From an uncultured SAR324 cluster bacterium (lineage in GTDB: Bacteria > SAR324 > NAC60-12), in contig CACGSI010000014.1 of the NCBI GenBank assembly GCA_902575715.1, positions 1-29,143 of the forward strand: 29,143 nucleotides of DNA. The letters are read 5' to 3'. Every line of letters starts with the position of its first letter. The first letter of the stretch is position 1. The notes beneath the pieces are model-generated. The model saw only the letters and a list, made by a program, of their open reading frames with translations, was not told the origin of the DNA and did no database searches. A program made the position numbers and the translations under genes. Below are positions 4,551 through 29,143 of the stretch, in pieces.

Positions 4551-6194
4551 CTATAAGATCATGAAACATAGTCCCATGATAACAGTCGGGACAAGAGCTG
4601 CTAATGCTAAATACGCTGGATTAACCCCATTATTGAAAAAACGACTAAGGATAGATTGCCCTGCAGGATTTGGAGCATTTGCTATAACGGTAAGTCCTCC
4701 TCCTGTAACTGCACCAGCTACAACAGCATATTTAGAAGCTTCACCTAAGTTCGGAACCAAAGTAGCAAGATATGTAATTGCCGCATTATCATTAAATGCA
4801 GTTAATACTGTAGCAGTAATCATCAGCTGAACTTCTGCAAGAGATCCCAGCACTGGTGCAATCCACCAACCCTGTAGACCTCCATGTGTTATCAAACCAG
4901 CAAGAAAAAAACCAACCAGTATCGGTGATTTTAGTTCAACATTATTTTGATGAGTTTTGGTCAAAGTTACAAATCCCAAGAAAAAGAGAAACCCACCAAT
5001 AAAAAGTGCTGGATAGTGAGCATTAAACACTGTCCATGCAAGAAAAATTATGTGCACTAAAGTAACCCACCAAGGAATAGGAGTATCCCTCTCAGCCCAC
5101 ATTTCTTCAAATTCCTCGTGGCTCATCTGACTTGGCTTGAGATTTTTCTTTTCAGGGCTATCAAAGGATACCCCCTCATTTTCTTGACTACCTTCACTCA
5201 TTACTTTGAATTGAGTTCTAAAAACCATATAAAAAAGCAGGTTCGAAATAAGAATTCCGATTGCAGCTTTCCAACCAAAATTGGTTGCCATAAATGCTAT
5301 ATCCCAATTCCAAGGGGCCGCAACCATAAGCACAGGAGGAGCGGCAAAATGTGTCAAAGTTCCTCCAACTGAAATATTAACAAATAGAAGACCAATTGTG
5401 GCATAACAAAAACCTGTACTAGGATTATGTTTATAAAACTGGTTTGCAAGTAAAAGTGCTGCAATTGTTATTGCAGCAGGTTCTGTTATGAAAGATCCTA
5501 AAAGTGGCGCAATCATTAAGATAGAAAACCACCATGCAGCAGGGGTATGTCCTCCTAACCCCGCGACAAGGCCCAGTATCTTTTCAGAAAATTTTACTAC
5601 AGGTCTAGTCGAAGCAATAGCCATAATTACTACCACAAACATTGGCTCTATGTATACTCGGTCGTAAACAATATAATTTTTAAATGTCGTCCAATCGTAA
5701 AAATTAATTGTAACAGCCATTAGAGCAAGAACCCAAATTCCAAAAATTACTTCAACCTCCCCGAGAAAATGAAATAACTCCGCTTTGAAAGGTATATCAT
5801 GATTTATTTCTTCCTCAGATGCACCCTCTTTTTTCATTCTTTCATCGTGTTCCTCGTGAATCAGATGAGCTTTAGCAGTCAGTTTATTGGCCAAAAAAGT
5901 GTGAATAATTGCTAACAAAAATATAATAGAAGCTACTAGATTAAATGAGTTAGCACTTATTCGACTAGATAGGATTTCTCCAACACTTGCTCCATCAGGA
6001 TCTTTAAAATTTTCAATTCCCTTTACTCGATTACAATTTTTCTCGATGAATTGAATAGAATTTTGATCCTCAACATAACAATCAAGTGGAACTGGGAATG
6101 GAGATAAGTCAGAGTTACTTACGCCCGAAACACTACTTATTCCTATGAAACACAAACTAACTGAAATTAAGCAACCTTTTACAAATCTCTTCAT
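4551..6194 (-). CDS. Putative Na+/H+ antiporter (PF07399-type), copy 1
   Basis: 547 residues from the ATG at 6194, which has a good Shine-Dalgarno AAGGAG four bases upstream; an in-frame TTG at 6209 lies before that ribosome-binding site and is rejected. The N-terminus looks like a signal peptide (MKRFVKGCLISVSLCFIGISSVSG), then a short extracytoplasmic segment and about 12 membrane helices. Family hallmarks include GSFITEPAAITIAALL, FAAPPVLMVAAPWNWD, TAFNDNAAITYLATLVP and AVTGGGLTVIANAPNPAGQ, with acidic and polar residues inside helices typical of NhaD/ArsB-like ion transporters. A charged cytosolic helix follows the first membrane span. It is a close paralogue of the gene just upstream. 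Transport of Na+ or Li+ against protons is the family prediction, not tested. Confidence 0.85.
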   Translation of the reverse strand: MKRFVKGCLISVSLCFIGISSVSGVSNSDLSPFPVPLDCYVEDQNSIQFIEKNCNRVKGIENFKDPDGASVGEILSSRISANSFNLVASIIFLLAIIHTFLANKLTAKAHLIHEEHDERMKKEGASEEEINHDIPFKAELFHFLGEVEVIFGIWVLALMAVTINFYDWTTFKNYIVYDRVYIEPMFVVVIMAIASTRPVVKFSEKILGLVAGLGGHTPAAWWFSILMIAPLLGSFITEPAAITIAALLLANQFYKHNPSTGFCYATIGLLFVNISVGGTLTHFAAPPVLMVAAPWNWDIAFMATNFGWKAAIGILISNLLFYMVFRTQFKVMSEGSQENEGVSFDSPEKKNLKPSQMSHEEFEEMWAERDTPIPWWVTLVHIIFLAWTVFNAHYPALFIGGFLFFLGFVTLTKTHQNNVELKSPILVGFFLAGLITHGGLQGWWIAPVLGSLAEVQLMITATVLTAFNDNAAITYLATLVPNLGEASKYAVVAGAVTGGGLTVIANAPNPAGQSILSRFFNNGVNPAYLALAALVPTVIMGLCFMIL

Positions 6195-6418
6195 AACTCT
6201 CCTTGACAATAGTTCTGTTAATCGAAAAATCTGTTATTAAGACAAAAATTTCTGTGTAAATTACTTTCATAAAAGAATTTTCAAAAGAATTTCCAAGTTA
6301 TAGCTAAACCCGAATACATACACAAAGTGTTCCTATTATCTTTATTTCTATCCTTAAAATATTTTTATTCTTAACAATTTTATTCAAAAAATATAATAAC
6401 AGATGTAAGAAAAAAAAA

Positions 6419-8008
6419 TTAATCTGTATATTTTTTTTCAATTACAATGGCTTTTTGTGGATCATTTAAATCCTGCGGAATTGCCATATAACAAAAACCC
6501 AAAATAATAGTAGGTATCATTGCTCCCATAGCAAGTTTAACAGGATTCACTCCACCGGGGAAATATTTTGACAATATCGATTGTCCAGCAGGATTCGGAG
6601 CATTTGCAATAACAGTCAATCCTCCTCCGGTTACCGCTCCAGCAACTACAGCATACTTAGCATTTATTGACAAATCTGGTACAAGTGTACTTAAATAGGT
6701 AATCGCAGCATTGTCATTAAACGCAGTTAATAATATTGCTGACAACATCAAAGGAATCTCTCCCAGAGATCCCAATACTGGAGCAATCCACCATGCCTGC
6801 AAACCTCCATGTGTAACCAATCCCGCTAAAAAAAACCCTACAAGCATTGGTGGCTTCAAATTTATATGGCTTTGGTATTTTTTAGTCGCAAAAGCAAAGC
6901 CAAGGAAAAATAAAAAGCCTCCTATAAATAGCGGAGGATAATGGGCATTAAAAACTGTCCATCCCATAAAAGAAATGTGAACAATCGTAATCCAATTTGG
7001 AATATGAGGTTCACTATTTTCAATATCAATTTTAACGTACTCAACATATTCTCCAACATCTTCTTTAACTGCAAGAGAATAGAATTCTTTCTTAAATGTT
7101 ATATAATAAACTGTATTAGAAATAATAATTCCCAAAAGTGCTTTCCACCCAAAATTCAATGTCATAAATGAAAGTGTCCATTCCCAAGGAGCTGCGACCA
7201 TAAGTACTGGGGGCGCCGCAAAATGAGTAAAAGTTCCCCCTACAGAAACATTAACAAACAGTATCCCAATAGTAGCATAAGCAAGTTTGCTAGTTGGAGA
7301 GTGTCGGTAAAACTGCTCCCCCAAAAGAATAGCTCCTATAGTCATTGCTGCTGGCTCAGTAATGAAAGAACCAAGCAATGGAGCTATAGTAAGAATAGAC
7401 AGCCACCATGCTCCGGGAGAATGTTTTCCAATACCTGCAAAAAGCCCTAAAATTTTCTTTGAAAATTGCATAATAGGCTTAGTAGAAGCAAGGGCCATAA
7501 TTACTACTACAAACATTGCTTCAGTATAATTAACTTTATAAGCAATGTAATTTTTAAAAGTAATCCAATCATAAAATGAAACTGTAACTGCAGCCAAGAC
7601 CAAAACCCAAATACCAAAAATAGCCTCTACTTCACCAAAGAAATGAATAATTTCTGTCCCTACAGGACTATTACGTTCTATTTCTTCTTTAGATTTACCC
7701 TCCACTCTCATTTTTTCTATATGATTACGTTCTAATCTTTTTGCGAATGCAGTAATTTTTGCTGCAAAAAAAGTATGAATAATGGCTAAAAAAAATATTA
7801 TTGATGACCAGAGATTAAATGGAGTATGATAAATACGGTTTGTTAAAACTTCAAAAATTTTTCCACTTTTTATTAAGTCATCATCTCCATATACTTCAAG
7901 AGGATTTGGGAATAGAATATGGTCAGAAACTTTTTCTGAAGCAAAAATAAATGGAGTCAAACTTACAAAAGTTGTTAACACCAAAAAATAAATTCTAAAA
8001 TTTTTCAT
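6419..8008 (-). CDS. Putative Na+/H+ antiporter (PF07399-type), copy 2
   Basis: 529 residues with an ATG at 8008 and a cleavable-looking signal (MKNFRIYFLVLTTFVSLTPFIFA). It aligns with the neighbouring copy almost end to end and shares the blocks GSFITEPAAMTIGAILL, FAAPPVLMVAAPWEW, LTAFNDNAAITYLSTLVP and AVTGGGLTVIANAPNPAGQSILS. Differences cluster in the N-terminal periplasmic segment (about 20 residues shorter here) and in the charged loop around residues 305-325. The copies are in the same orientation, 224 bases apart, so they arose by tandem duplication or are kept as a pair with different ion or pH preference. An alternative is that both are subunits of one hetero-oligomer. Confidence 0.85.
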   Translation of the reverse strand: MKNFRIYFLVLTTFVSLTPFIFASEKVSDHILFPNPLEVYGDDDLIKSGKIFEVLTNRIYHTPFNLWSSIIFFLAIIHTFFAAKITAFAKRLERNHIEKMRVEGKSKEEIERNSPVGTEIIHFFGEVEAIFGIWVLVLAAVTVSFYDWITFKNYIAYKVNYTEAMFVVVIMALASTKPIMQFSKKILGLFAGIGKHSPGAWWLSILTIAPLLGSFITEPAAMTIGAILLGEQFYRHSPTSKLAYATIGILFVNVSVGGTFTHFAAPPVLMVAAPWEWTLSFMTLNFGWKALLGIIISNTVYYITFKKEFYSLAVKEDVGEYVEYVKIDIENSEPHIPNWITIVHISFMGWTVFNAHYPPLFIGGFLFFLGFAFATKKYQSHINLKPPMLVGFFLAGLVTHGGLQAWWIAPVLGSLGEIPLMLSAILLTAFNDNAAITYLSTLVPDLSINAKYAVVAGAVTGGGLTVIANAPNPAGQSILSKYFPGGVNPVKLAMGAMIPTIILGFCYMAIPQDLNDPQKAIVIEKKYTD

Positions 8009-19757: not shown

Positions 19758-20435
19758 ATGGAATTCAGATTTTTTGAAATTTATAGAAATGCAGATTATA
19801 TACATCTACTCATAGAAGGAATTACAACAACATTTTTTTTGACTGTTTTCGCAGGAACAATAGGTTTTTGTCTAGCTATTTTACTCGCGGGTGTAAGATA
19901 TGAAAAAATAAGTATTATTGCTTCAATTTCAGCTTCCTACACCGAGTTTATTCGAAATACACCACTTATAGTACAACTTTTTTTTGTTGCATTTGGCCTT
20001 CCTCTTCTTTTTAATTATCAATGGCCTTTCTGGGCACATGCTCTTCTTGCACTAATCTTAAATTTTTCAGCTTATTTTGCAGAAATTTTACGAGCTGGTT
20101 TTGATAATATTAGCAAAGGGCAAATAGAAGGAGCTTTATCAATAGGATTATCAAGGAAAGTTATTTTTTTTAAAATTATACTTCCTCAAGCTGTCGCAAA
20201 AATGTACCCATCCTTAGTGGGGCAATTTATATTCCTTTTTCTTACTACAGGTATTATTTCTGAAATCGGTGTTCAAGACCTTACTCATGCTGGATTATTC
20301 ATAGATAGTAGAACTTTTAGATCTTTTGAAGTCTTCTTAATTTTGACGGTATTGTATATTCTTATATCTTTATTTTTTAAGTATGTACTTGCTAGATGCA
20401 ATCTAAAATTTTTCCCCTACTTAAGAATTCAATGA
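19758..20435 (+). CDS. Polar amino-acid ABC transporter permease 1
   Basis: 225 residues of the HisM/GlnP class with about five membrane helices. The cytoplasmic EAA loop that docks the ATPase is present near residues 110-140 (AEILRAGFDNISKGQIEGALSIGLSRKVIFFKIILPQA). The N-terminal hallmark LLIEGITTTFFLTVFAGTIGF and the FIRNTPLIVQLFF segment are typical. It partners with the next gene, overlapping it by four bases. Confidence 0.9.
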   Translation: MEFRFFEIYRNADYIHLLIEGITTTFFLTVFAGTIGFCLAILLAGVRYEKISIIASISASYTEFIRNTPLIVQLFFVAFGLPLLFNYQWPFWAHALLALILNFSAYFAEILRAGFDNISKGQIEGALSIGLSRKVIFFKIILPQAVAKMYPSLVGQFIFLFLTTGIISEIGVQDLTHAGLFIDSRTFRSFEVFLILTVLYILISLFFKYVLARCNLKFFPYLRIQ

Positions 20436-24269: not shown

Positions 24270-25709
24270 ATGAAAAATTTAATACAAACTGAATATAATG
24301 CCAAAATTTTATCGAAACTTTCTAAAGCTAATCATGAATTCGAAAAAAAATATCTTGGAAGATCACTTATGCGTCAACCTGTTCATACTGTATATGGAGG
24401 AGCACATTTGTTTAAGGCTGACACCGCAAAAAAAATTGGTACCCTCGCACTAAATAGTTTGAAAGACTTTGCTCCTAATTTTGTAATATTCGCAAGAGCA
24501 CTATCATTAGAAGGAGCAGATACCCTTCCGAAGAATATCAAAGATATCGATTCTTTAGTAAATGAATCTCTGAAAAATGGAGTAACCCCTTCTAACTTCC
24601 CTATATGGCTATCGTGGAGAGTCTATGATCAAGTTATAAAAAAATTAGAAAGAGAAGCAATTGAAGATTTCCGTGTAGATTATGAAGATGGCTTTGGTAT
24701 TCGCCCTGATGATGAAGAAGATGCTATTGCAACTAAAGGAGCTAAAGAAGTGGCTTTGGGAATGAAGCAAGGCACGCTACCACCATTTATAGGTATTAGG
24801 ATTAAGCCATTTAATCAAGAGTTCGTCAAAAGAGGGACTAGAACATTAGAAATATTTATTACTACTTTACTCGAAGAAACAGGTGGTAAATTACCAGAAA
24901 ATTTTGTAGTAACCTTACCAAAAGTAGAAATCCCGGAACAGGTAACAGCATTAGTAGAAATTTTCGAGTTAATGGAATCAAATTCTAGTCTGAAAAGTGG
25001 TGATCTAAAAATGGAGATAATGATAGAAACTACTCAATCAGTTTTTAATTCCAACGGTGAAGTTACAGCTAGAAAAATCGCCAACGCTGCCGATAAAGGT
25101 GATTCCAAATTTAAGAGATGTATTGGAGCACATTTTGGAACTTATGATTACACTGCATCGTGTGATTTAATAGCTGCTTACCAAACAATGGATAGTAAAG
25201 TTTGCGATTTTGCAAGACATGTCATGAAAGTAGCTTTTGGAGGCTCAGGAATTTTCTTGTCTGATGGTGCAACAAATATTATGCCTGTATCTCCGCATAG
25301 GGGAGAAAAACTTTCCAATCTTCAGATCAGGGAAAATTTAGAAAGTGTTCACAAAGCATGGAAACTTTCTTACAAACACATCCGTCATTCGCTTGCCCAA
25401 GGTTTCTATCAAGGTTGGGATCTGCATCCCGCTCAAATTCCTATCCGATATGCAGCAAATGCTGCCTTTTTCCTTGAACAGGTTCAAGAATCAACAACAA
25501 GACTAAAAAACTTCGTTGAACAAGCATCGAAGGCAACTCTAAGTGGTGATGTTTTTGATGACGCAGCTACTGGACAAGGATTACTTAATTTCTTTTTTCG
25601 TGCACTTAACAGTGGTGCTATTGATCCAGAAGATGTTGAGAATGCTGGAGTAACTGTCCAGGAAGTCCAAGCTAGATCATTCCGTCAAATTGTAGAAGCA
25701 AGAAGATAG
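24270..25709 (+). CDS. DUF6986/HpcH-HpaI-like aldolase, citrate-lyase-beta superfamily
   Basis: 479 residues. Features of the CitE/malyl-CoA-lyase/malate-synthase-like TIM barrel: an acidic metal-binding block VDYEDGFGIRPDDEEDA (136-152), MEIMIETTQSV, GAHFGTYDYTAS and the LHPAQIP block typical of HpcH/CitE proteins. It is larger than CitE and resembles the group catalogued as DUF6986, sometimes annotated as phosphoenolpyruvate kinase or aldolase without good evidence. In the family, reactions make or break C-C bonds next to a carboxylate, often with glyoxylate. Since glyoxylate is the end product of ureidoglycolate breakdown, a role in consuming it is plausible. It ends at a hairpin terminator. 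Confidence 0.75.
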   Translation: MKNLIQTEYNAKILSKLSKANHEFEKKYLGRSLMRQPVHTVYGGAHLFKADTAKKIGTLALNSLKDFAPNFVIFARALSLEGADTLPKNIKDIDSLVNESLKNGVTPSNFPIWLSWRVYDQVIKKLEREAIEDFRVDYEDGFGIRPDDEEDAIATKGAKEVALGMKQGTLPPFIGIRIKPFNQEFVKRGTRTLEIFITTLLEETGGKLPENFVVTLPKVEIPEQVTALVEIFELMESNSSLKSGDLKMEIMIETTQSVFNSNGEVTARKIANAADKGDSKFKRCIGAHFGTYDYTASCDLIAAYQTMDSKVCDFARHVMKVAFGGSGIFLSDGATNIMPVSPHRGEKLSNLQIRENLESVHKAWKLSYKHIRHSLAQGFYQGWDLHPAQIPIRYAANAAFFLEQVQESTTRLKNFVEQASKATLSGDVFDDAATGQGLLNFFFRALNSGAIDPEDVENAGVTVQEVQARSFRQIVEARR

Positions 25710-25747: not shown

Positions 25748-27106
25748 TTAAGATTTGTTTTTGGGAAGAACAAGATTTAGTATTAATGCACACAAACCAC
25801 CGGAAGTTATAGCGGAACCAAAAATTTGCTGAATTGCTTTAGGCATGTGACTAAGTACTTCTGGTACAAAAGCAAGTCCAAGTCCTACTCCTAGTGAAAC
25901 TGCAATTATCAAAATTTCCCTGCGACCTAAACGCCCCATCGAAGCGATAATATTTACACCGGCTGCAGCAACTGTTCCAAACATTACAATAGTTGCTCCT
26001 CCTAAAACCGGATTTGGAAGCGAACGAAAAAAACCCCCCACAACCGGAAATAAACCAAGAATAACTAGGAATCCGGCAAGATACATTCCTACGTACCTAC
26101 TTGCAACTCCCGTCATTTGAATTACACCATTGTTTTGACTGAAAGTAGTATTTGGAAAAGTATTGAAAATGGCTGCAATAGCTGAATTAATTCCATCTCC
26201 CAAAACACCTCCCTTTATACGCTCCATATATTTATCACCTTCTACAGGCTCTCCCGAAAGCATTGAAGTGGCCGTCAAATCTCCTGTAGATTCAATGGCA
26301 GTAATTATATAGATAAAAGCTACTCCAATAAAAGCTGCCCAATTGAAATCAAATCCAAAATTAAAAGGAATTGGAATACTAATTATATCTACTCCAGACA
26401 TATGCCCAAAATTAACTTTACCCATAATAAGAGCTACTATGTAACCAACCACTATTCCACCTACTATAGATCCCAATCGAATCATTGGATTTTTACTTCT
26501 ATTTAAAATTAGAACAACTAACAAAACAAGTATTCCCAAACCCAAATTTCCGGCTGTACCAAAAAATTCTGGTTTATTATCCAATAACCATTTACCTCCA
26601 GCCATATCAGTAATCCCTACTTTGACAAGGCTGAGTCCTATGAGCATTACAACCGTACCAGTAACAACAGGAGTAATGACCTCTTTCAATACGTGTAAAA
26701 AACGACTAATTAGCATTTCAATAAAAGCGCCGACAAAACATACACCAAAAATTGTTGCTAACATTTCATCTGGACCACCTCCCTGTGCTTTTACGATAAA
26801 TCCTGCTGTAAGAATAGCACCTAAAAACGCAAAACTTGTCCCCTGAACACTCAATAAACCCGATCCAACTGGACCAAATCGTCTTGCTTGAATAAAGGTT
26901 GCCACGCCTGAGACAATCAAAGACATACTTATTAAATAAGGAATATTTTCTCCTAAGCCAAGGACCCCTCCTATAACTAGCGTAGGAGTTATAATACCAA
27001 CAATTATTGCAAGCAAATGCTGTATAGCAGCATAAGATGATTCTACTGGAGATGGCTTGTCTTCTACGCCATACACCAGTTCTAATTTGTCATTTTCTTT
27101 TTCCAT
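25748..27106 (-). CDS. NCS2-family xanthine/uracil permease
   Basis: 452 residues with about 14 membrane helices of the UraA/XanQ fold. The nucleobase-ascorbate transporter signature is complete: QNNGVIQMTGVASR. An acidic residue two helices earlier (TAIESTGD) corresponds to the conserved Glu of the substrate site. Proton-coupled uptake of xanthine, uric acid or uracil is the family role; the facing ureide genes favour a purine. The start codon ATG at 27106 has GGAG eight bases upstream. The leader contains a terminator hairpin and an alternative pairing partner, so transcription is probably attenuated. Confidence 0.9.
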   Translation of the reverse strand: MEKENDKLELVYGVEDKPSPVESSYAAIQHLLAIIVGIITPTLVIGGVLGLGENIPYLISMSLIVSGVATFIQARRFGPVGSGLLSVQGTSFAFLGAILTAGFIVKAQGGGPDEMLATIFGVCFVGAFIEMLISRFLHVLKEVITPVVTGTVVMLIGLSLVKVGITDMAGGKWLLDNKPEFFGTAGNLGLGILVLLVVLILNRSKNPMIRLGSIVGGIVVGYIVALIMGKVNFGHMSGVDIISIPIPFNFGFDFNWAAFIGVAFIYIITAIESTGDLTATSMLSGEPVEGDKYMERIKGGVLGDGINSAIAAIFNTFPNTTFSQNNGVIQMTGVASRYVGMYLAGFLVILGLFPVVGGFFRSLPNPVLGGATIVMFGTVAAAGVNIIASMGRLGRREILIIAVSLGVGLGLAFVPEVLSHMPKAIQQIFGSAITSGGLCALILNLVLPKNKS

Positions 27107-27128
27107 ATCTTCTCCATGATTGATTAAG

Positions 27129-27154
27129 AAAAAATGGCGCTAAGATAAGCACCA
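27129..27154 (-). terminator. Intrinsic terminator in the leader of the permease gene
   Basis: Read on the minus strand, UGGUGCU and AGCGCCA pair over seven bases (one G-U) around a six-base loop and are followed at once by U6 (27134 to 27129). The structure ends 22 bases before the permease ATG, leaving room only for the ribosome-binding site. No such U-tract exists on the plus strand, so it acts on permease transcription. Confidence 0.75.
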
Positions 27155-27260
27155 GGACAAAAAAAGGACATTCTAACAAAATCAAATTTGTTCAACAACA
27201 AAATAATAAACTTTTTTTAGCAAATGATTATTGGTGGTGTCTTAGCTGATTTTTATTACA
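27129..27260 (-). promoter_or_regulatory. Putative riboswitch/attenuator leader of the xanthine permease gene
   Basis: In minus-strand RNA the segment GCUAAGACACCA (27246-27235) is complementary to UGGUG (27154-27150) and UCUUAGC (27145-27139), 12 pairs with a four-base bulge. These partners overlap both arms of the terminator hairpin, so the two folds exclude each other. About 80 bases between the partners, including a UUUGUU/AACAAA hairpin, could form a ligand-sensing domain. A possible -10 box TGTAAT (27260-27255) would start transcription right before the first pairing segment. The conserved core of classical purine riboswitches is not recognisable, so class and ligand are unknown. Position upstream of a purine permease suggests purine sensing. 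Confidence 0.55.
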
Positions 27261-27341
27261 ATTTTTTAAAAATTTTTTGAATGCATTGTTTAAAGTATAC
27301 AAAAAATATTTATTGATCTTTTATATTTAATTTTAAAAAAT

Positions 27342-29143
27342 TTACATTCTCACACGCTCACTCATGGGATCGTAAAATGCTTTCAAAGATGCCTTTGCAC
27401 TATACCTTTCACCAGCAACTTCAATTTCAAATTTACTGGATCTTATTAATTCATCAGTTACTCCTCCCTTAAAAAAAACGTATCCCATACCTAAACAGGT
27501 TCCGATTGTATGGCCATACATTCCAGATGTTAGATCCCCGACTATTCTTCCATCGCACCAAATAGGTTCATTATGGTAAAGCATTGGAGTTGGATCTTCT
27601 AGAGCAAATTGTACAAGTCTTTTCTCAAAAGCTTCCATTTTTGATTCTAATAATGAATCCTTTTTCTCTAATAAAGCTTCTCTTCCGATAAAACCACCTT
27701 TTTTATCATATTTAACGGTAAAGTCCAGCCCCGCCTCTAGAGGAGTATCCTCATCTGTTATATCATGTCCCCAATGTCTAAAAGATTTTTCTAACCGGAG
27801 TGAATTTAGAGCATGCAATCCTGCTAATTTAATTCCATAATCTTTACCAGATTCAATAATTTTATCAAAAATGTCTTGAGCAAACTCTGTAGGCACATAT
27901 ATTTCCCAACCTAACTCTCCTACATAAGTAATACGAAGCGCCAAAGCCTTACCATAACCTATTTCAATTTCCTTTGATGTACCAAATGGAAAAAATTCAT
28001 TAGACAAATCAGTAGGAGTAAGTTTGGATAACAAATTTCTTGATTCAGGACCCATCAAACTCATAACGGTGTATCCTGAAGTCACATCAGTTACTGTTAC
28101 ATTTGCCCTATCTGGTATATTTTTGTTTAGCCAACTTAAATCACGAGTATGGCTTGCTCCAGCGGTTACTATCAGAAAAACATTTTCTTTTAACCGCGTC
28201 ACTGTTAAGTCTGATTCGATACCTCCTCTCTCATTAAGCCATGAGGTATATACAACTTTTCCAGGATTTACTTCAACATTATTAGCACAAATTCGATTCA
28301 AAACCTTTAAACTATCTGAGCCTTGAAATAAAAATTTTGCAAATGATGACATGTCGAAAAGTGCAACTCTTTCTCTGGCCGCAATATGTTCTGAAGCAGA
28401 AAAATCAAACCAATTTTGACGACCATAACTATATTCATAATTAGCTTTCTTATCCTTAGGAGCAAACCAATTAGCTCTTTCCCAACCACTCAATTCTCCA
28501 AAGCAAGCACCAGAACTTTTTAGACGATCATGCAACACAGATTTTCTCACACCTCGGCTCGTTTCTGGTTGAAGATATGGCCAGTGCATTGAGTATAACA
28601 ATCCTAATGTTTCCTTTGTACGATCCTTTAGATAACGAGCATTACCTTGGAATGTATGAAATCGACGAATATCAACGTCCCACAAATCCATTGGAGGATA
28701 ACCATTAATAATCCATTCAGATAATACTTTGCCGGCTCCGCCTGCGGATTGAATTCCAATAGAGTTGAATCCTGCCGCAACAAAAAAATTTTTTATTTCA
28801 GGGGATTCCCCTAAAATATATCGGTCATCTGGAGTAAAACTTTCTGGTCCATTTAGAAAAGTTTGAATCCCCACATCTCCTAATTTTGGTATCCGATGAA
28901 TAGCATTAAGCATTGCAGGCTCAAAATGATCCCAATCCTCAGCAAATGTTCCAAACGAAAAATCATCTGGAATAGAATCCAATGGTCTTGGTTTAGAATT
29001 TGGCTCAAAACAACCAACTAACATTTTTCCAGCATCCTCTTTAGCGTATATCCATCCATTAGGATCTCTCAAAACTGGCAAATTGGAGGGCAATCCCATC
29101 TCTTCAGTAACAATATAAAAATGTTCTGCAGCATGAAGGGGAA
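27342..29143 (-). CDS. Dimethylglycine/sarcosine dehydrogenase-like FAD oxidoreductase with GcvT domain (5' end beyond window)
   Basis: 601 codons including the stop are visible; the frame is open to the right edge, so the N-terminal FAD-binding motif lies outside and the ATG at 29099 is internal. The visible part starts in the FAD oxidoreductase domain (AEHFYIVTEE, LPVLRDPNGWIYAKEDAGKMLVG, FVAAGFNSIGIQSAGGAGK) and continues with a folate-binding aminomethyltransferase-like domain from about residue 240 (VALFDMSSFAKF, GIESDLTVTRL, YVGELGWEIYVP, HALNSLRLEKSFRHWGHD) to the C-terminal barrel (VGDLTSGMYGHTIG). Such enzymes oxidatively demethylate N-methylated glycines and pass C1 units to tetrahydrofolate. 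Full-length relatives are about 800-860 residues. It is upstream of the permease on the same strand, separated by 235 bases holding the attenuator. Confidence 0.88.
   Translation of the reverse strand, partial: PLHAAEHFYIVTEEMGLPSNLPVLRDPNGWIYAKEDAGKMLVGCFEPNSKPRPLDSIPDDFSFGTFAEDWDHFEPAMLNAIHRIPKLGDVGIQTFLNGPESFTPDDRYILGESPEIKNFFVAAGFNSIGIQSAGGAGKVLSEWIINGYPPMDLWDVDIRRFHTFQGNARYLKDRTKETLGLLYSMHWPYLQPETSRGVRKSVLHDRLKSSGACFGELSGWERANWFAPKDKKANYEYSYGRQNWFDFSASEHIAARERVALFDMSSFAKFLFQGSDSLKVLNRICANNVEVNPGKVVYTSWLNERGGIESDLTVTRLKENVFLIVTAGASHTRDLSWLNKNIPDRANVTVTDVTSGYTVMSLMGPESRNLLSKLTPTDLSNEFFPFGTSKEIEIGYGKALALRITYVGELGWEIYVPTEFAQDIFDKIIESGKDYGIKLAGLHALNSLRLEKSFRHWGHDITDEDTPLEAGLDFTVKYDKKGGFIGREALLEKKDSLLESKMEAFEKRLVQFALEDPTPMLYHNEPIWCDGRIVGDLTSGMYGHTIGTCLGMGYVFFKGGVTDELIRSSKFEIEVAGERYSAKASLKAFYDPMSERVRM

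Follow-up and report, generated by a model that had tools for sequence, protein, structure and literature searches.

What does a short hairpin followed by a run of T, standing just before the start codon of a xanthine permease gene, do in bacteria of the SAR324 cluster? The question was raised by a preliminary description of one such leader, which proposed a riboswitch or attenuator built on mutually exclusive terminator and antiterminator folds. The window, that is, the whole stretch of 29,143 nucleotides analysed here, carries on its minus strand (25748-27106) a gene for a 452-aa protein of the NCS2 family, pbuX type. This protein matches NCBIfam TIGR03173 at 434.5 bits (cut-off 414.15) as well as Pfam PF00860, and its top PDB matches are uric acid-xanthine permeases, so that what had been called a xanthine/uracil permease can be named, by TIGR03173, a pbuX-type xanthine permease. 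The nearest relatives of the window are SAR324-cluster bacteria, and the permease of the closest one (L001) is 96% identical. A DUF6986 gene (24270-25709) is convergent with the permease gene, and the genes past it encode an asparaginase-like protein, a carbamoyltransferase and an (S)-ureidoglycine aminohydrolase; from these neighbours, the local gene theme is probably purine breakdown. Elsewhere in the window, two adjacent minus-strand genes (4551-6209 and 6419-8008) encode two membrane proteins (552 and 529 aa) that look alike and are probably sodium/proton antiporters; the pair has the look of a tandem duplication.

The hairpin itself is present in the sequence as it had been described. On the minus strand at 27135-27154, seven pairs enclose the loop TATCTT (TGGTGCT-TATCTT-AGCGCCA), a T6 tract (27129-27134) follows the stem immediately on its 3' side, and 22 bases separate this tract from the ATG at 27106. 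The interval contains a Shine-Dalgarno-like GGAGAAG (27109-27115, positions -9 to -3); GGAG is found in all 12 rows of the leader alignment and is absent from L011, which stands outside that alignment. By itself the window hairpin is unremarkable: when the 90-nt leader is shuffled, 8 of 100 versions do equally well. Our judgement that it goes beyond chance is based on its conservation across the 13 SAR324 leaders.

The comparison covered 13 leaders, from the window and 12 SAR324 relatives. Nine relatives are labelled SAR324 and three (L002, L005, L009), labelled Deltaproteobacteria or Proteobacteria, belong to the same class set; L012, which comes from a Cloacimonadota MAG and lacks a hairpin of this kind, was left out before every 13-leader count. 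A hairpin with a T-rich tail, ending 26-31 nt 5' of the ATG, occurs in 13/13 leaders when at least five T in eight bases are sought, beginning 0-2 bases past the stem; the hairpin cut-off of -5.5 kcal/mol was chosen after the result of this search. For L008 the search script selected a longer hairpin than the hand-set one of 22 nt, with an identical 3' end. Leaders taken singly are ordinary (5 to 35 of 100 shuffles match the real hairpin), and the sequence of the hairpin drifts: stem arms read GGTGC/GCGCC, GGTGTTTC/GAAACACC or GGCACTT/GAGTGTC, near-identical arms being common to the four related leaders L002, L004, L006 and L013, and the most constant pairs are the GG/CC at the stem base, adjoining the T tract.

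Pairing, on the other hand, is kept. For a 6-pair helix aligned over the 13 sequences, 85.9% of cells are paired against 75.0% after shuffling (a level reached by 0/500 shuffles) and 33-51% in slid controls; the covariation score is likewise reached by 0/500 shuffles, the number of pair types by 26/500, and changes on both sides, seen in 4/6 pairs, by 47/500. An 8-pair helix over 12 sequences, without L011, gave 85.4% paired cells, a covariation score reached by 1/500 shuffles, both sides changed in 5/8 pairs (10/500) and a number of pair types matched by 71/500. These values come from alignments that favour the structure and from shuffles that disregard relatedness; in an alignment of 12 with the window and L001 stems misplaced, all the covariation measures stood at 46 to 49 of 500. 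When whole arms were exchanged among species, the result was as good as the real combination in 114 of 10000 trials with 13 sequences and in 273 of 10000 with 10 representatives. In folds of the whole leader, the hairpin is absent from L010 and L011 and partial in L007. The hairpin is conserved as a structure across SAR324 leaders.

A conserved promoter-like element precedes it. The window has a predicted extended -10 element, TGT-TAGAAT, at 27170-27178 of the minus strand, and the pattern TGnTANNNT recurs in 13/13 SAR324 leaders, its first base 72-95 nt 5' of the ATG and its last 12-22 nt short of the hairpin, as read off the alignment, with one of two candidates picked by hand in L002 and in L007. 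Leader comparison also points to a -35-like TTGTTG (27193-27198) at a spacer of 17 nt; this hexamer begins with TTG in six of the 12 relatives and is weaker in the remaining six, and a simple sigma-70 scan of the window did not report the extended -10 promoter, whose -35 matches at 3/6 positions. Spacing only places the predicted +1 near 27163, in a run of seven T (27159-27165). At least three T at bases 5-8 past the -10 hexamer were counted by eye in 12/13 leaders, the exception being L003, and the same criterion holds at 9/34 sites with the extended -10 pattern across SAR324 leaders, a set that includes the permease's own. We found no conserved purine start directly before the T run in the 13 leaders. 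The genes upstream of the permease are three different ones in the window, L006 and L004, with promoter and hairpin kept in each, which fits a permease forming a unit with its own promoter. Promoter activity, a start near 27163, termination and any regulation are all predictions made from sequence.

The spacer between -35 and -10 also contains a dyad, AACAAA-N6-TTTGTT (27192-27175), of which L006 has a perfect 7+7 version. Considered as an operator candidate, its arms match better than letter-shuffled arms (0/5000), and within species no better than in between-species swaps (2358/5000 as good), in a test whose fixed register missed the window's own 6+6 dyad.

The switch that had been proposed involves a minus-strand segment further upstream, GCTAAGACACCA (27235-27246), acting as an antiterminator. 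As claimed, 27246-27235 can form 5+7 pairs with 27154-27150 and 27145-27139, and the minimum-energy fold of 27260-27129 contains this pairing; the fold is not unusual (-21.8 kcal/mol, z -1.56, 13/200 shuffles equal). The duplex is equalled by 12/5000 shuffles of its upstream DNA, yet 48 of 2898 arbitrary 20-nt segments of the window have an upstream partner of equal or greater strength. The relatives offer no parallel: in 12/12, the strongest duplex that the upstream 130 nt can offer was not better than shuffles at 5% (30-464 of 500), and for L001 243 of 500 shuffles pair upstream equally well. By energy alone the duplexes of L002 and L006 are stronger (-20.6 and -18.4 kcal/mol), but they do not exceed what base composition gives, and the segments that form them lie towards the distal limit of the searched 130 nt. 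As upstream duplexes are ordinary in all 12 relatives, the 12-pair pairing is not a conserved feature. Moreover, the conserved predicted promoter lies between the segment and the hairpin, so that the segment should be absent from the gene's own transcript and would have no part in any competition there. We therefore reject this antiterminator, and the mutually exclusive folds are not supported: of the two pairings whose covariation was at issue, the hairpin covaries in SAR324 and the antiterminator pairing lacks conservation.

A ligand-binding RNA fares no better. No Rfam family matched the window at gathering level, and at E up to 10 the region 27060-27345 gave 11 matches, all to eukaryotic families (miRNA, snoRNA, U7 or mitochondrial rRNA), the best with an E of 0.38. 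A known RNA family for the leader was rejected for want of a gathering-level match, and the approximately 9 nt between the predicted start and the hairpin would leave no room for an aptamer. Pairing of the U tract with the Shine-Dalgarno sequence, which appears in some whole-leader folds, was considered as a fourU-like thermometer and found no support, since Shine-Dalgarno pairing is not above background (means of 0.06-0.98 and an average of about 0.48 in the 13 leaders, against 0.57 in 42 background leaders).

How unusual is the layout? Our background consisted of 104 SAR324 leaders, each having a clear start and an intergenic stretch of 100 nt or more, with gene and start assignments made by a crude script. 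T-rich stretches ahead of the Shine-Dalgarno sequence are common among them: at least five T in eight at -35 to -15 are found in 46/104, a hairpin with a T tail at this place in 18/104, four of them permease leaders, and the set of promoter, hairpin and T tail in 5/104, namely four permease leaders and that of one SBP_bac_5 gene. Among 34 ortholog trios with leaders of at least 80 nt in three SAR324 genomes, the permease trio is the one in which all three genomes have the hairpin. Two trios pass at laxer limits, the second preceding a gene whose product begins like 2-isopropylmalate synthase; this test under-detects, as it missed the SBP_bac_5 leader at both settings. Between genomes G003 and G005, 2/63 leaders pass, one of them the permease's. 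Within the window, two of 17 chosen gene starts pass the hairpin filter, the permease and a start at 19758, where the T run belongs to the stem itself. Outside SAR324 (L012, L014-L080), 6/68 permease leaders have a hairpin and T tail ending at -60 to -10, and none of the 68 has the extended -10 pattern 12-30 nt before a hairpin.

The explanation that we place first, tentatively and short of real confidence, is that this promoter-proximal, terminator-type hairpin is a leaky attenuator operating without an RNA antiterminator. The extended -10 element (27178-27170) would serve as the permease's own promoter; RNA polymerase would start near 27163 and within about 35 nt would have made the hairpin, with its GC-rich base, and the U tract. 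Part of the transcripts would stop near +35, and the remainder would continue into the permease 22 nt later. Read-through might be controlled by a protein or by coupling to initiation, or might go uncontrolled, leaving the hairpin as a constant brake; the choice narrows to these three because no competing fold fits before the hairpin. An attenuator is possible since a terminator-like hairpin is conserved with compensatory changes, and to this extent the preliminary description holds, whereas its switch folds and ligand-binding RNA are unsupported. With GG/CC pairs closing the stem where the T tract begins, the sequence looks like that of an intrinsic terminator. A score of the d'Aubenton-Carafa type is 30.5 for the window; it is strictly positive in 2/13 leaders, positive in 8/13 when one skipped base is allowed, and negative in 5/13 even then. 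Hairpin energies are weak, from -5.2 to -10.7 kcal/mol over the 13 leaders. In a survey, 5' terminators are described as weaker than those at 3' ends; their mean of -16.5 kcal/mol is still stronger than the SAR324 hairpins (PMC2965389).

Close behind the leaky terminator ranks its main rival, a serious possibility, in which the role of the 5'-proximal stem-loop would be not termination but protection of the mRNA against 5'-end-dependent decay. The T tract would then be either AT-rich background or a ribosome-friendly stretch ahead of the Shine-Dalgarno sequence. Such a role suits a hairpin that starts about 10 nt from the predicted transcription start and persists in leaders with a negative terminator score, and a similar promoter-hairpin leader stands before the SBP_bac_5 transporter gene in SAR324. 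It leaves unexplained the constant pairs abutting the T tract and the T-rich tail in 13/13 leaders. In addition, unpaired 5' bases weaken the protection given by a stem-loop, as in E. coli ompA, and the approximately 9 unpaired bases 5' of the stem would do so here. Stabilising 5' stem-loops as a class are established (works cited in PMC3997798).

A broader version of attenuation without an RNA antiterminator, which we consider rather unlikely, is a design shared by SAR324 transporter leaders, in which a trans-acting factor or the nucleotide pool at initiation would decide whether the hairpin terminates. The order of elements would be an extended -10 promoter, a T run at the start, a hairpin by about +10, a T tract and a Shine-Dalgarno sequence. 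If true, this shared design would control xanthine uptake without any RNA antiterminator. Six of 22 other transporter leaders pass the hairpin filter, against 14/100 non-permease background leaders, and 7/8 members of the 497-aa SBP_bac_5 ortholog group do so (L193 fails). The transporter set comprised 30 leaders, 29 for PF00496, drawn from part of its matches, and one for PF03401; as many of their starts were guessed and some are clearly wrong, these counts do not demonstrate enrichment.

The 497-aa SBP_bac_5 transporter leader of SAR324 (L134:2989-3064, minus strand; L191-L196, L198 and L200) has a layout similar to that of the permease, with a promoter-like element, a pyrimidine or T run, a hairpin (e.g. 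ACCTTCC-GCAA-GGGAGGT) and a T tract; its hairpin sequence is unrelated to that of the permease. Leaders of a 571-aa SBP_bac_5 gene (L205, L209, L211, L214, L215) show by eye other inverted repeats of changing sequence, such as GGCATTCAG...CTGAATGTC. A leuA-like 523-aa gene in G003, G002 and G005 is preceded by a conserved hairpin, GCTTGAAC...GTTCAGGC, with a T tail. In the three genomes it lies some 48-50 nt 5' of the chosen start, and it is possibly an attenuator of a leucine gene.

A wider regulon for the permease leader hairpin itself is weakly indicated. We built a covariance model, R1, from the window and 11 relatives and searched 52 genomes at E up to 1. By construction R1 finds the permease leader in its 11 source genomes, and it missed that of the sole held-out genome, G006, whose locus L011 was matched in another register (E 0.025); the model is thus without independent confirmation. 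At its best other matches, L188 and L189 (E 0.0029 and 0.0083), the hairpin is badly formed or absent. Two weak matches that do have a hairpin, L190:1501-1578 and L172:1501-1572 (E 0.015 and 0.099), directly precede genes for similar, secreted-looking proteins of 328 aa in two SAR324 genomes.

Three further readings can be weighed more briefly. It is improbable that RNA polymerase slips on the initial T run and so makes initiation UTP-sensitive, the hairpin acting on whatever escapes: the T run is present in 12/13 leaders against 9/34 pattern sites, but no conserved purine start lies right before it, and the permease is of the purine rather than the pyrimidine type. UTP-dependent reiterative transcription is described for pyrBI, codBA, upp and carAB (PMC6245113). 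Equally improbable is an inverted repeat serving as a DNA operator for a repressor and not as an RNA element: the repeat does lie immediately downstream of the promoter with near-identical arms in L002, L004, L006 and L013, but arms vary among species with pairing retained, and in the SAR324 DNA scanned GGTTTGACGCG occurs solely at permease leaders (5/5 matches) and CGGCTCGTT elsewhere once (1/7 matches). Least probable is a riboswitch or attenuator with the terminator/antiterminator switch first proposed, whose 12 pairs in the window, for all that few shuffles match them, meet ordinary upstream duplexes in every relative, a segment upstream of the conserved promoter and an Rfam search of the window with no gathering-level match.

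The riboswitch claim gives way to a simpler, testable picture of how xanthine uptake may be set in a widespread marine lineage. If termination by the leaky terminator is real, the permease leader would amount to an attenuator of minimal form whose RNA cannot switch. The case also carries a lesson: before a terminator-antiterminator pairing seen in a single sequence is named a switch, it should be looked for in relatives and the position of the promoter should be checked. Literature titles and the beginnings of abstracts contained nothing on this SAR324 permease leader, a statement that extends to those texts and no wider.

How does the leader compare with known systems? Purine and xanthine riboswitches are known to control xanthine permease genes; the SAR324 leader, by contrast, has no gathering-level Rfam match and no room for an aptamer past the predicted start. 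The existence of an attenuator in E. coli ampC is documented (PMC3660660). In the ampC system, the attenuator lies in a short leader between promoter and gene with no antiterminator RNA, and antitermination is proposed to come from a ribosome that loads in the leader. The SAR324 leader resembles it in the short leader, the position of the putative attenuator and the lack of antiterminator RNA, and differs in having no Shine-Dalgarno sequence or start codon before the hairpin. With 5' stabilising stem-loops of the ompA type it shares a stem-loop near the mRNA 5' end, and differs by a T tract after the stem and about 9 nt before it. In UTP-sensitive reiterative initiation (codBA, upp, pyrBI), a T run in the initially transcribed region follows a purine start 7-8 bases from the -10; in the SAR324 leaders a T run stands at the predicted start in 12/13, and a purine start is not conserved. 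The rimP-leader is a 5' premature terminator without a visible antiterminator, with a stem so conserved in sequence that it suggested a protein to the authors (Naville and Gautheret 2010, PMC2965389). The SAR324 stem instead drifts with its pairing kept, and in this sample it is found in SAR324 only. Like 5' premature terminators (PMC2965389), the SAR324 hairpin is weaker than 3' terminators, and like the rimP-leader it is a terminator-type hairpin standing before one gene family across species with no visible alternative fold: it is a conserved leader hairpin that is specific to its lineage and belongs to a kind already known in general.
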